Shown here: piece after piece, positions 27,092-64,000 of the stretch | Position numbering within the stretch: position 1 is the first letter of the stretch | Layout of the letters: every line of letters starts with the position of its first letter | Assembly: GCA_017643585.1 (NCBI GenBank) | Contig: JAEPND010000005.1 | Span: 1 to 64,000, forward strand | Direction of reading: 5' to 3' | Origin: Maricaulis sp. | GTDB taxonomy: Bacteria; Pseudomonadota; Alphaproteobacteria; Caulobacterales; Maricaulaceae | Length of the DNA: 64,000 bases | Position numbers and translations under genes: made by a program | The notes under the pieces: generated by a model | The model's database searches: none | The model's input: the letters and a program-made list of their open reading frames with translations, nothing else | Told to the model about the DNA's origin: nothing

Positions 27092-28390
27092 ATGATTCCC
27101 CGCTATACCCGTCCTGAAATGGCCGCCATCTGGTCGGACCAGAACAAGTACAAGATCTGGTATCTGATCGAGGCACATGCGACGGAAAAGCTGGCCGAGC
27201 TGGGCGTTGTGCCCCAGTCCGCCGTGGACGCGGTATGGAAAGCCAAGGATGTCGATTTCGATGTCGACCGGATCAACGAGATCGAGGCCGAGGTCAAACA
27301 CGACGTCATCGCCTTCCTGACGCACCTGGCAGAACATGTTGGCGAGGAAAGCCGGTTTGTGCACCAGGGCCTGACCTCATCCGACGTGCTGGACACCTGC
27401 CTGGCGGTACAGATGAAACAGTCTGCCGACCTGTTGCTGGTCGCCATGGACCGTGTTCTCGCGGCCCTGAAAACCCGTGCGGAGGAGCATAAATACACCG
27501 TCTGTATCGGCCGCTCGCACGGCATCCATGCCGAGCCGACAACGATGGGTCTGAAATTTGCCCGTTTCTATGCCGAGTTCGCGCGCAACCGGGCCCGCCT
27601 CGTTGCCGCACGTGACGAGATTGCCACCTGTGCCATTTCCGGTGCCATCGGCACGTTTGCCAATGTCGATCCGTCTGTTGAGGCGCATGTCGCTGAGCAG
27701 ATGGGCCTGACCGTCGAGCCGGTCTCCACCCAGGTCATCCCGCGTGATCGCCACGCCAACTATTTCGCCGTGCTGGGCCTGATCGCCTCGGCGATCGAGA
27801 ATATCGCGGTTGAAGTGCGCCATCTTCAGCGCTCCGAAGTGCGCGAGGCGCAGGAATATTTCTCCAAGGGCCAGAAAGGCTCGTCCGCCATGCCGCACAA
27901 GCGCAATCCGATCCTGACGGAAAACCTGACCGGTCAGGCGCGCCTGGTGCGCTCGGCCGTCATACCGGCCATGGAAAATGTCGCCCTGTGGCACGAGCGC
28001 GATATCTCGCACTCCTCCGTGGAGCGCGGTATCGGCCCGGACGCCAATGTCCATCTCGACTTTGCCCTGCACCGGACCGCCGGCATGATCGAGAAGCTGA
28101 TCGTGCATGAAGATCGCTGCCGCGAGAATCTGGAAGCCTATGGCGGCATCCATAATTCCCAGCGTGTTCTGCTCGCCCTCACCCAGGCTGGCGCCTCCCG
28201 CGAGGACAGCTATCGCCTGGTTCAGCGCAATGGCATGAAAACCTGGGATGAAGGGGGCAAGCTGGTCGAACACCTCAAGGCCGATGAAGGCGTCACCGCC
28301 CTGCTCTCTGACGAACAGATCGAAGCCTGTTTCGACGAGGCCTATCACCTCAAACATGTCGACACGATTTTTGCGCGTGTTTTTGCCTAG
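27092..28390 (+). CDS. purB: Adenylosuccinate lyase
   Basis: A 432-residue homotetrameric enzyme of the fumarase/aspartase superfamily, acting twice in purine synthesis (SAICAR to AICAR, and adenylosuccinate to AMP). The signature loop SSAMPHKRNPIL is present near residue 266, as are TSSDVLDTCLA and the GRSHGIHAEPTTMG region with its catalytic histidine. ATG at 27092 has GGAG at 7-base spacing; a longer in-frame start at 27035 is less likely. It lies 2.2 kb ahead of the purC-S-Q-L operon, with unrelated genes between. Confidence 0.95.
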   Translation: MIPRYTRPEMAAIWSDQNKYKIWYLIEAHATEKLAELGVVPQSAVDAVWKAKDVDFDVDRINEIEAEVKHDVIAFLTHLAEHVGEESRFVHQGLTSSDVLDTCLAVQMKQSADLLLVAMDRVLAALKTRAEEHKYTVCIGRSHGIHAEPTTMGLKFARFYAEFARNRARLVAARDEIATCAISGAIGTFANVDPSVEAHVAEQMGLTVEPVSTQVIPRDRHANYFAVLGLIASAIENIAVEVRHLQRSEVREAQEYFSKGQKGSSAMPHKRNPILTENLTGQARLVRSAVIPAMENVALWHERDISHSSVERGIGPDANVHLDFALHRTAGMIEKLIVHEDRCRENLEAYGGIHNSQRVLLALTQAGASREDSYRLVQRNGMKTWDEGGKLVEHLKADEGVTALLSDEQIEACFDEAYHLKHVDTIFARVFA

Positions 28391-28420
28391 CAAGCTCGCT
28401 TAAGTTATCGCCATTCTATA

Positions 28421-28449
28421 GCGTCATCCCGACGAAAGTCGGGACCCAG
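28421..28449 (+). repeat. Left terminal inverted repeat with GAAA-loop palindrome
   Basis: A perfect 29-bp partner of 28749-28777. The internal hairpin is CCCGAC (28428-28433), GAAA, GTCGGG (28438-28443). The repeat ends two bases before the ATG of the enclosed gene. Confidence 0.85.
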
Positions 28450-28450
28450 A

Positions 28451-28744
28451 ATGACGTTTCAGCCTTGCGTGCACATAATGGCGAGCAAGCGCAACGGTAC
28501 GCTCTACACTGGCGTCACCAGCGACATCGCCATGCGTGCCTTGATGCACAAGGAAGGTCGCGGTTCGAAATTCTGTGCCAAATACGGTGTCAACATGTTG
28601 GTCTGGCTGGAACTTCACGAGACCATGGACACCGCGATCACGCGCGAGAAACGCATCAAGGAATGGAAGCGCGCCTGGAAACTTGAGCTTATCGAGGGGC
28701 GAAATCCCGATTGGCGCGACCTGTACGACGACCTGAACAGCTGA
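28451..28744 (+). CDS. GIY-YIG nuclease family protein
   Basis: A 97-residue single-domain GIY-YIG protein. The motif is seen as VHIMASKRNGTLYTGV (HIM replacing GIY, LYTG for YIG). It continues with the arginine-bearing helix (ITREKRIKEWKRAWKLELIE) and the NPDWRDLY ending typical of the small UPF0213-like subfamily. The GIY-YIG fold usually makes single-strand DNA breaks. The ATG at 28451 lies directly after the left terminal repeat and has no clear ribosome-binding site. An internal ATG at 28478 would remove the first motif half. The gene is enclosed exactly by inverted repeats, which suggests that nuclease and repeats move or act together. Confidence 0.85.
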   Translation: MTFQPCVHIMASKRNGTLYTGVTSDIAMRALMHKEGRGSKFCAKYGVNMLVWLELHETMDTAITREKRIKEWKRAWKLELIEGRNPDWRDLYDDLNS

Positions 28745-28748
28745 ACCA

Positions 28749-28777
28749 CTGGGTCCCGACTTTCGTCGGGATGACGC
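28749..28777 (-). repeat. Right terminal inverted repeat with palindrome
   Basis: The exact reverse complement of 28421-28449, beginning four bases after the stop codon of the GIY-YIG gene. Confidence 0.85.
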
Positions 28778-28877
28778 GGATGGTGGCTGATTTGTGCATA
28801 TACGCCATGTCGCTGGGCGACTTTTTCTCAGCAGCAACTCGACCTAATGTTCGTGGCGGGGCGAAGCGGAGAGTGAC

Positions 28878-29438
28878 ATGGCCAAGTTCTACGACCAGAT
28901 TGATGATCGCATTCAAGCCTTTATCGACAGGCAGAAAATGTTCTTCATCGCTACGGCCCCGTCGGGCGATGACGGTTCGGTCAATCTCTCGCCCAAGGGG
29001 TATGACAGTTTTCGGGTGATTGGCCCCAATGAGGTTGCCTATCTGGATCTGGGCGGCTCGGGGATCGAAACACTCGCACATGTGCGTCAGAACGGCCGCA
29101 TCACCTTCATGTTCTGCGCTTTCGAAGGCGCTGCGAACATCTTGCGCCTCTATGGCACGGCACAAGCGGTGACATTCGAGGAACCGGGTTTTGCCGAAAA
29201 GCTCGCCCTGTTCCCGGACTTCCCCAAGGCCCGCGCTGTCATCACCGCGAAGATCCACAAATGCCAGGACAGCTGCGGCTGGGGCGTGCCGTTCTACGAA
29301 TTCAAGGGTGAGCGCGACCAGCTGGTGCGCGTCAACGCCCACCGTTCCGACGAGGAATGGGCGGCGCGGCGTTATGAGAGCAATGCCCAGTCGATCGACG
29401 GCCTGCCCGGCCTGATCAAGCCGGAAGGGGCGGAATAA
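28878..29438 (+). CDS. Pyridoxamine 5'-phosphate oxidase-like FMN-binding protein
   Basis: A 186-residue split-barrel flavin protein. The onset QKMFFIATAPSGDDGSVNLSPKGYDSFRV and VAYLDLGGSGIETLAHVRQNGRITFMF are typical of PNPOx-like proteins of the Pfam PNPOx group that are not vitamin B6 enzymes. A CQDSCGWGVPFYEF segment near residue 137 is conserved in this subfamily. Its substrate is unknown; such proteins usually bind FMN or F420-like cofactors. The ATG has GGAGAG upstream. Confidence 0.88.
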   Translation: MAKFYDQIDDRIQAFIDRQKMFFIATAPSGDDGSVNLSPKGYDSFRVIGPNEVAYLDLGGSGIETLAHVRQNGRITFMFCAFEGAANILRLYGTAQAVTFEEPGFAEKLALFPDFPKARAVITAKIHKCQDSCGWGVPFYEFKGERDQLVRVNAHRSDEEWAARRYESNAQSIDGLPGLIKPEGAE

Positions 29439-63537: not shown

Positions 63538-63935
63538 CGCATTAAACATCTCTTTTTTCCCGGAGGAGCGAAGCGAATTCCTTGACCTACCCCTGGGCAA
63601 GCTAGAACTCGTTTGTAGGCCCCGGCACAAGGCCGGGGGAAATGGATAGTGACATTGGTCAGTGATATCGAACCAAAGGTCTTTCCACCCCGGATTACCA
63701 TCCTCGATCAGATTGAATTTCCAGGCACGCGGATGGCGCTTGATTTGCTGCTCCTTACGCCACGCGGCCTCCCAGCAATCATGGGGCTCGAAATAGACGA
63801 GCTGGTTGATCGAGTACGTCTTCGTGTGACCGCGCAAAAACATGTTCGGTGTTCCCACTCACGCCGCACCAGGTCTCTTGTCCGACCGGTGTACAGTGCG
63901 CCGCGCGGACGGCTTGCCATGATGTAGACTGTCTC
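63523..63935 (-). pseudogene. Frameshifted GIY-YIG nuclease gene
   Basis: The N-terminal half of a GIY-YIG domain (ETVYIMASRPRGALYTGRTRDLVRREWEHR, read from about 63935) and the C-terminal half (GHTKTYSINQLVYFEPHDCW, then REQQIK-type RKEQQIKRHPRAWKFNLIE and NPGWKDLWFDI) lie in different frames that meet near 63845. One base inserted or lost explains it. The second frame then runs on through a REP-like palindrome and the terminator to 63523 with no stop at the usual domain end. It is the second GIY-YIG gene in the window and not a close copy of the first. Confidence 0.7.
63620..63638. repeat. REP-like palindrome beside the GIY-YIG pseudogene
   Basis: CCCCGGC-ACAAG-GCCGGGG, a 7-bp stem with a 5-base loop, lies just past the normal end of the GIY-YIG domain. 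Its sequence differs from the 29-bp repeats at 28.4 kb, but the placement beside a GIY-YIG gene is the same. Confidence 0.6.
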
Positions 63936-64000
63936 GTGTGCGTCGATGATCGTGCAAAACCTCCGATTGCATACAAACGATCTACTACCGAAAAGATGAA

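Follow-up and report, generated by a model that had tools for sequence, protein, structure and literature searches.

The window analysed here, a stretch of 64,000 nucleotides from a Maricaulis genome, holds at positions 28421-28777 a compact unit in which a small nuclease gene is enclosed by two hairpins. The parts of this unit, its two neighbours and a further relative of the gene near the end of the window are as follows:

28421-28449, plus strand: left REP hairpin, with its CGTC tag outward, stem, GAAA loop, stem, and CCCAG tail towards the gene
28451-28744, plus strand: GIY-YIG nuclease gene of clade 1, 97 codons, with His instead of Tyr at residue 8
28749-28777, minus strand: right REP hairpin, an inverted copy of the left REP, tag outward and tail towards the gene
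ending at 28390: purB, the upstream neighbour of the unit (gene name taken from the sequence-only reading)
28878-29438: PNPOx-domain gene, the other neighbour of the unit (PF01243 match)
63658-63960, minus strand: frameshifted GIY-YIG remnant, a relative of the gene

The 29-mers at 28421-28449 and 28749-28777 are exact reverse complements of each other, each occurring once in the window, and the sole open reading frame between them encodes a 97-residue protein matching the GIY-YIG family PF01541 (E 7.8e-14). The gap between the left repeat and the ATG is a single base, and that between the TGA and the right repeat is four bases. The sequence-only reading had described exact inverted 29-bp repeats around a single GIY-YIG gene, a description confirmed by the sequence, the list of reading frames and the PF01541 match. 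It had also stated that each repeat is a GAAA-loop hairpin, and folding against shuffled sequences bears this out: as single-stranded DNA the left repeat reaches -11.5 kcal/mol (z -4.6, with none of 200 shuffles as good) and the right repeat -10.5 kcal/mol (z -2.2, with 8 of 200 as good). The stem, TCCCGAC/GTCGGGA, is of 7 bp with one A-C mismatch at its base. A known RNA element as the identity of the unit was ruled out by the absence of Rfam matches (0) in 28200-29000. The 3' arm of the left hairpin contains GGGA six bases before the ATG, a putative ribosome-binding site for the nuclease gene; by its overlap with the gene's start region the hairpin could also adjust translation.

The protein belongs to a family in which G16-T17-L18-Y19-x-G21, R29, H33, E66 and N85 are invariant among 40 aligned rows (10 of the 50 intended rows having been left out), while Y19 and L18 are nearly so in another alignment. 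The conserved residues of the GIY-YIG motif have catalytic roles. The window protein retains G21, R29, H33, E66 and N85, and carries His at residue 8, where the nearest relative (L014) has the Tyr that is nearly invariant in the family. As this Y8H change replaces the first tyrosine of the motif, the copy in the window may be weak or dead, that is, decaying or otherwise impaired. Purifying selection on the gene is shown for the measurable copy pairs, with dN/dS values of 0.02-0.33 in six of seven pairs; the remaining pair, between the window gene and L015, was saturated. The nearest solved structures are the UPF0213 proteins 1zg2 (E 1e-6) and 1ywl (E 8.6e-5), followed by UvrC (E 0.03). Relatives are annotated as 'GIY-YIG nuclease family protein', 'excinuclease ABC subunit C' or 'hypothetical protein', and an NCBIfam search of the protein returned one match, at chance level. 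A known defence gene was ruled out, as PADLOC gave no match, and so was a phage gene, since three phage records match, none over 80% of the protein, and PHROGs gave one match at E 0.17.

The repeats have the anatomy of the CGTC REPs defined by Di Nocera et al. 2013 (PMC3733652), in which an unpaired CGTC-type tag is followed by an 8-9 bp stem that starts with an A-T pair, a loop of 4-5 bases and a CCA-type tail. Tag, stem, loop and CCCAG tail are all present in the window repeats, with a stem one pair short of the described 8, and in the terms of that paper the two repeats form an HH dimer with the tags outside. Copies of such REPs are dispersed through a genome, often paired with the tags outermost. 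According to the same authors they occur chiefly in Alphaproteobacteria, every order of which has species that carry them, and are mostly intergenic, often downstream of genes; in the available part of the paper no dedicated transposase was found for the superfamily, no associated enzyme gene is reported and what spreads these REPs is left open. Here, unlike in that account, a recurrent partner appears, namely the GIY-YIG gene. Two of the species named there as CGTC-positive, A. lipoferum and S. meliloti, carry a GIY-YIG gene with such hairpins, and the superfamily described in PMC3733652 includes the Neisseria dRS3 repeats, alike in tag, stem, loop and CCA-type tail to the repeats reported here. 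In Bergeriella denitrificans (L116, 5527-5808) and Neisseria gonorrhoeae (L343, 1501-1776) a relative of the gene is flanked by dRS3-like hairpins (ATTCCCGCGCAGGCGGGAAT).

Within its own 3.1-Mb genome the exact 29-mer occurs at its two places in the unit alone, while allowing up to 3 mismatches brings the number of sites to six. With a degenerate CGTC-REP pattern, at up to 2 mismatches, 12 dispersed sites are found, a low copy number, compared with 0 for a reversed-pattern control. Two further relatives of the gene (contigs C33 and C44) are each flanked by their own hairpin variant as plus/minus pairs. The sequence-only reading had named a repeat present only here as a result that would count against it; taken literally this is in part what was found for the exact 29-mer, while variant hairpins and many units of gene plus hairpins exist elsewhere. 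The remnant at 63658-63960 has a GC-rich hairpin just past its 3' end (about 63618-63638), which lacks a CGTC tag.

The gap between purB and the PNPOx gene varies between species of the genus, and the comparison shows turnover at this site, which may be an insertion hotspot. One relative (G004, L014) has the same two hairpins around a gene with an internal deletion; another (G008, L015) has a diverged gene with its own matching hairpins; others have a hairpin pair without a gene (G003, L020), one hairpin (G006, L016) or a gap of 14 bases (G010, L028). A clean insertion junction was not found at this site among the relatives compared. At L022, L024 and L026 the gap holds longer, TGTC-tagged palindromes with a second inner hairpin, and likewise the flanks of the C44 copy (L005).

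This patchy occupancy bears on the possibility that the nuclease serves the host, by resolving or trimming REP cruciforms and so protecting it, in which case the REPs at the gene would act as a sensor or in autoregulation and mobility would be incidental. Such a role would agree with the purifying selection on the gene, with the overlap between the left REP arm and the start region, and with the action of the related GIY-YIG enzymes SLX1 and ANKLE1 on branched or cruciform DNA, as described in the literature. The occupancy of the purB and other sites, however, has the look of a mobile element rather than of housekeeping, and one genome (G144) carries ten strong clade-1 copies, in addition to which decayed copies occur; we thus regard a host function as quite improbable.

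The pairing of gene and hairpin recurs widely. A profile of four sequences, searched against 241 alphaproteobacterial genomes, matched in 109 of them and scored above 90 bits in 72, a value that corresponds to a gap in the scores; the cut-offs used throughout (above 90 bits for clade 1, above 97 bits for clade 2 and at least 4 repeat hits) were set after the tables had been viewed. A wider search of genome contigs with a 22-sequence alignment gave at least 588 relatives, from which the best 80 were kept, chosen by protein only; their record titles span Alpha-, Beta-, Gamma- and Deltaproteobacteria, together with several other phyla in metagenome bins. Around these best 80 genes the density of CGTC hairpins is 7.28 per kb at 0-100 bp from the gene, 3.29 at 100-200 bp and 0.04-0.12 at 0.5-8 kb, compared with 0-0.004 per kb in a reversed-sequence control. 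With seven loci left out that lacked 300 bp on one side, a CGTC hairpin lies within 300 bp of the gene in 70 of the 73 scorable loci (on both sides in 47), compared with 45 of 614 other genes in the same loci. The alphaproteobacterial sample of 75 loci gives a weaker picture by the tag rule, 43 of the 73 loci so scored being positive, against 3 of 35 control genes; most, not all, of the negatives have hairpins with other tags, as judged by eye in 26 of the 30 negative rows, which represent 25 genes.

A test free of any consensus, which asks for an inverted 12-mer common to both flanks, gave 50 of 73 loci compared with 17 of 664 control genes, and in the alphaproteobacterial sample 37 of the 74 loci scored compared with 1 of 67 controls. 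Chance or a local artefact is ruled out by the comparison with control genes and with reversed sequence and by how widely the pairing recurs. The unit is usually REP, nuclease gene, REP with the tags outward, sometimes with a REP pair on each side: in 73 of 101 loci the tag of the nearest upstream hairpin points outward, and in 28 it points the other way (median distance 25 bases from the matched region); for the nearest downstream hairpin the numbers are 67 of 99 and 32 (median 14 bases), and among the REP pairs in the loci examined 77 are outward and 49 inward. In a variant in genus g9 (L293-L303, L208, L217) the reading frame crosses the downstream hairpin and ends beyond it, so that the REP encodes part of the C-terminus of the protein.

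Comparison of sites between relatives indicates that the unit moves. The sequence-only reading had called for a comparison of empty sites, and the unit was indeed found to occupy sites that are empty in relatives, at the L300 locus, in Azospirillum and in Sphingobium. In genus g9 one REP-gene-REP unit is found at seven sites with unrelated flanks, and in one genome (G030) two copies resemble each other across the span of the hairpins and a few bases beyond, and differ outside it. The L300 site is unoccupied in G326, where the flanks meet without a gap; among the 12 loci compared there 3 are occupied and others have short gaps or other inserts, and the L300 insert also takes in roughly 40 and 30 bases outside the hairpins. 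The site of L217, occupied in G030, is empty in G286 (gap of 7), but about 40 further bases on one side are unaligned. At this latter site sister species of the same genus (L264, L266, L267, L269, L281) carry short palindromic inserts of other, unrelated kinds.

In Azospirillum lipoferum 4B the region between sufB and sufC holds the gene with one hairpin pair on each side, and four other Azospirillum plasmids are without this insert, their flanks being 96% identical in three and 90% in one. Among Sphingobium plasmids, seven records have the unit between fnrL and a response regulator, one of them (AP027340) with the reading frame of the gene disrupted, and in four records this site is empty; the alignment covered all four of these and two of the occupied ones. 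One of the empty sites (L347) holds a single palindrome identical to the joined outer halves of the occupied site's two hairpins; a near copy of this joined palindrome is present at L351, and there is none at L348 and L349. Palindromes tagged at both ends are rare, with 1 compared with 300 one-tag REPs in the 80 loci. The L347 site can be read as the target of insertion at the tip of a palindrome, as the product of excision by cuts at both tips, or as the outcome of a deletion between direct repeats of 8 bases (ACCCCGGG) that lie within the hairpins, since deletion between short direct repeats can also leave an empty site of this type. No target duplication is apparent by eye at the Sphingobium and Azospirillum sites, and plasmid searches with one Rhizobium copy and one Shinella copy yielded no clean empty site.

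A different picture is given by G189 (L223, L224, L225), where the unit is present twice with the same internal deletion in the gene, its two copies being 95.5% alike. The sites of these copies are unrelated; longer terminal inverted repeats enclose each copy, and direct repeats identical at 11 of 12 positions lie on either side (by eye). Such gene-deleted copies suggest movement in trans, either by the enzyme of an intact copy or by another transposase.

The nuclease family includes a second clade with a palindrome of its own. Weaker GIY-YIG genes, at first used as a negative control, were found to carry another palindrome; these clade-2 genes form a sister clade, score 44-63 bits against the clade-1 profile and carry in their flanks palindromes such as CCTCATCCTGAGCTTGTCGAAGGATGAGG. 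When flanks were scored by rule, 113 of 145 clade-1 genes had CGTC hairpins, compared with 0 of 23 clade-2 genes, whereas TGAGC palindromes were beside 4 of 145 clade-1 and 11 of 23 clade-2 genes. For this comparison one gene of G144 that had been entered twice (L061, L166) was counted once by leaving out L166, so that 72 loci of the alphaproteobacterial sample were scored, while 23 of the 24 clade-2 loci were scored, 11 of the 24 being from the same genomes as loci whose flanks had already been viewed. The lone 'weak' locus with a CGTC hairpin (L165) proved to be a split, frameshifted clade-1 gene, and none of the 12 other weak loci has one.

The repeats follow the genes at the level of whole genomes as well, in counts that ignore kinship: at least 4 CGTC hits occur in 26 and at least 4 TGAGC hits in 1 of the 59 genomes with clade 1 only, in 0 and 5 of the 13 with clade 2 only, in 5 and 4 of the 13 with both clades, and in 13 and 3 of the 156 with neither. 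Against a strict pairing, 13 of the 44 genomes with at least 4 CGTC hits are without a strong clade-1 gene, and 41 of the 72 gene-bearing genomes fall below 4 CGTC hits by this narrow pattern. On a FastTree of 176 proteins, which is poorly resolved, the REP class requires 26 changes compared with 51.3 in shuffles. Within 16 multi-copy genomes the upstream flank is closer to the gene's own downstream flank than to those of the paralogues in 48 of 59 genes, including six clade-2 genes and L165, with mean scores of 58 versus 22. Protein and flank similarity are correlated among 116 paralogue pairs (rho 0.38, within-genome permutation p about 0.003); the medians of flank similarity hardly differ (22.5 versus 21), so that a few close paralogue pairs carry this effect.

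These observations weigh on two further explanations. In the first, REP pairs would be moved in trans by another transposase, and the nuclease gene would be cargo caught between two REPs. The G189 copies, with their terminal inverted repeats and direct repeats, are what this would produce, and some REP-rich genomes do without a strong gene. Clade-by-clade pairing with two different palindromes is, however, not expected of cargo, and the same small gene would have to be the recurrent cargo in many phyla, each time; we consider this explanation unlikely, although less so than a host function. In the second, REPs would insert preferentially beside GIY-YIG genes, or act there as terminators, with no tie to the protein. 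The mostly intergenic location of REPs, often downstream of genes (PMC3733652), would fit this, as would the presence of some hairpin in the flanks of 246 of the 664 control genes. Yet the hairpins flank the gene on either side as a matched pair and travel with it, and the type of hairpin depends on the clade of the nuclease, so that this explanation was already disfavoured and is very improbable indeed.

The reading that we favour, and hold to be probable, is that small GIY-YIG nucleases and REP palindromes form a widespread mobile partnership, to which this locus belongs; the partnership would be similar to RAYT/REP systems in its working and built on an unrelated enzyme. The pairing of nuclease clade with palindrome class, the matched repeats, the several unrelated sites and the occupied and empty sites are shown, as is purifying selection in the measurable copy pairs; the agreement of REP class with the protein tree and the joined hairpin halves at one empty Sphingobium site also speak for this reading. 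Of the suggestion in the sequence-only reading, a REP-type element with a GIY-YIG enzyme in the place of the transposase, the element itself is supported by the hairpin density, the control genes, the clade-specific pairing and the mobile units with empty sites; that the nuclease itself acts on its REP, cutting or moving it, is what we infer. Against the favoured reading stand the mixed orientation of the hairpins, the finding of the TGAGC motif in only 11 of 23 clade-2 genes, and a window protein without the first tyrosine of its motif, as do the REP-rich genomes without a strong clade-1 gene, the gene-bearing genomes with few CGTC hits, the lower share of positive loci in the alphaproteobacterial sample, the rarity of two-tag palindromes, the deletion reading of the empty Sphingobium site and the G189 copies.

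In the mechanism that we propose, the nuclease would recognise its own REP as a hairpin or cruciform, either extruded or single-stranded, in line with the action of SLX1 and ANKLE1 mentioned above, and would cut near the tip or tag of the REP, whether the REP belongs to the nuclease's own unit or to a pair without a gene. The unit might then be copied or relocated by host repair, the overall outcome being a homing-like spread directed by DNA structure. GIY-YIG enzymes are hydrolytic, and strand transfer by the nuclease itself is not expected, which is why the copying or relocation is assigned to host repair.

Since the pairing is common to many bacteria, the enzyme is a candidate for the missing partner of a common REP family. 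A wider proposition, to which we give an even chance, is that the CGTC REP superfamily, with the Neisseria dRS3 repeats among its members, owes its mobility to small GIY-YIG nucleases dedicated to this task, and that the sister clade does the same for the TGAGCTTGTCGAAG palindromes. The enzyme-driven spread of REPs would then have arisen at least twice from unrelated enzymes, with HUH transposases serving the GTAG REPs and hydrolytic GIY-YIG nucleases acting at hairpin tips here. If true, this would suggest a function for many genes with a vague GIY-YIG, excinuclease or hypothetical annotation, and a mode of spread dependent on DNA structure and host repair instead of strand transfer by a transposase. 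With such a nuclease family as partner, the question of how CGTC REPs spread can be put directly to a protein of 97 residues and an oligonucleotide of 29 bases.

Among known systems, MITEs and insertion sequences share with the present unit a short length bounded by inverted repeats and, in G189, deleted copies in two places; they differ in that the ends here are self-complementary hairpins and that there is no transposase. Terminal inverted repeats with direct repeats, as target duplication might leave in such elements, were seen by eye round the two G189 copies, and none are apparent by eye at the Sphingobium and Azospirillum sites. The UPF0213 and bacterial Slx1-like small GIY-YIG proteins are akin through the nearest solved structures, 1zg2 and 1ywl, and an association of these proteins with REPs was not found in the literature searched. 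GIY-YIG homing endonucleases such as I-TevI and the Seg enzymes belong to the same nuclease superfamily, and their genes are likewise present or absent at a site. Unlike them, the protein described here has 97 residues without an added DNA-binding domain, and its unit brings its own palindromes and sits at unrelated sites. With regard to the intact target that homing expects in an empty allele, the four empty Sphingobium sites comprise one with the exact joined halves, one with a near copy and two with neither. A survey of the superfamily reports no GIY-YIG homing enzymes in Alphaproteobacteria (PMC1564403).

The closest parallel is found in the RAYT/TnpA-REP REPtrons of the GTAG REPs, in which an enzyme gene is likewise flanked by short tagged palindromes, gene-less copies and pairs occur elsewhere, and enzyme and repeat co-vary, the TnpA-REP groups having co-evolved with their REPs (PMC8266576). 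A REPtron carries an HUH tyrosine transposase and a GTAG tag, whereas the sole reading frame here is a PF01541 GIY-YIG gene and the tag is CGTC; because the HUH enzyme and the GTAG tag are absent, the unit is not a member of the REPtron family, and a further difference is that here units move together with the gene. A literature search by title and the start of the abstract, with most subscription journals and all preprints outside its scope, returned no paper with a GIY-YIG/REP pairing. Counting any pair of REP and enzyme as one kind would make the present system a variant of the known REP systems; we regard it as a new kind, because its enzyme class, and hence its chemistry, differs from that of the known REP system.
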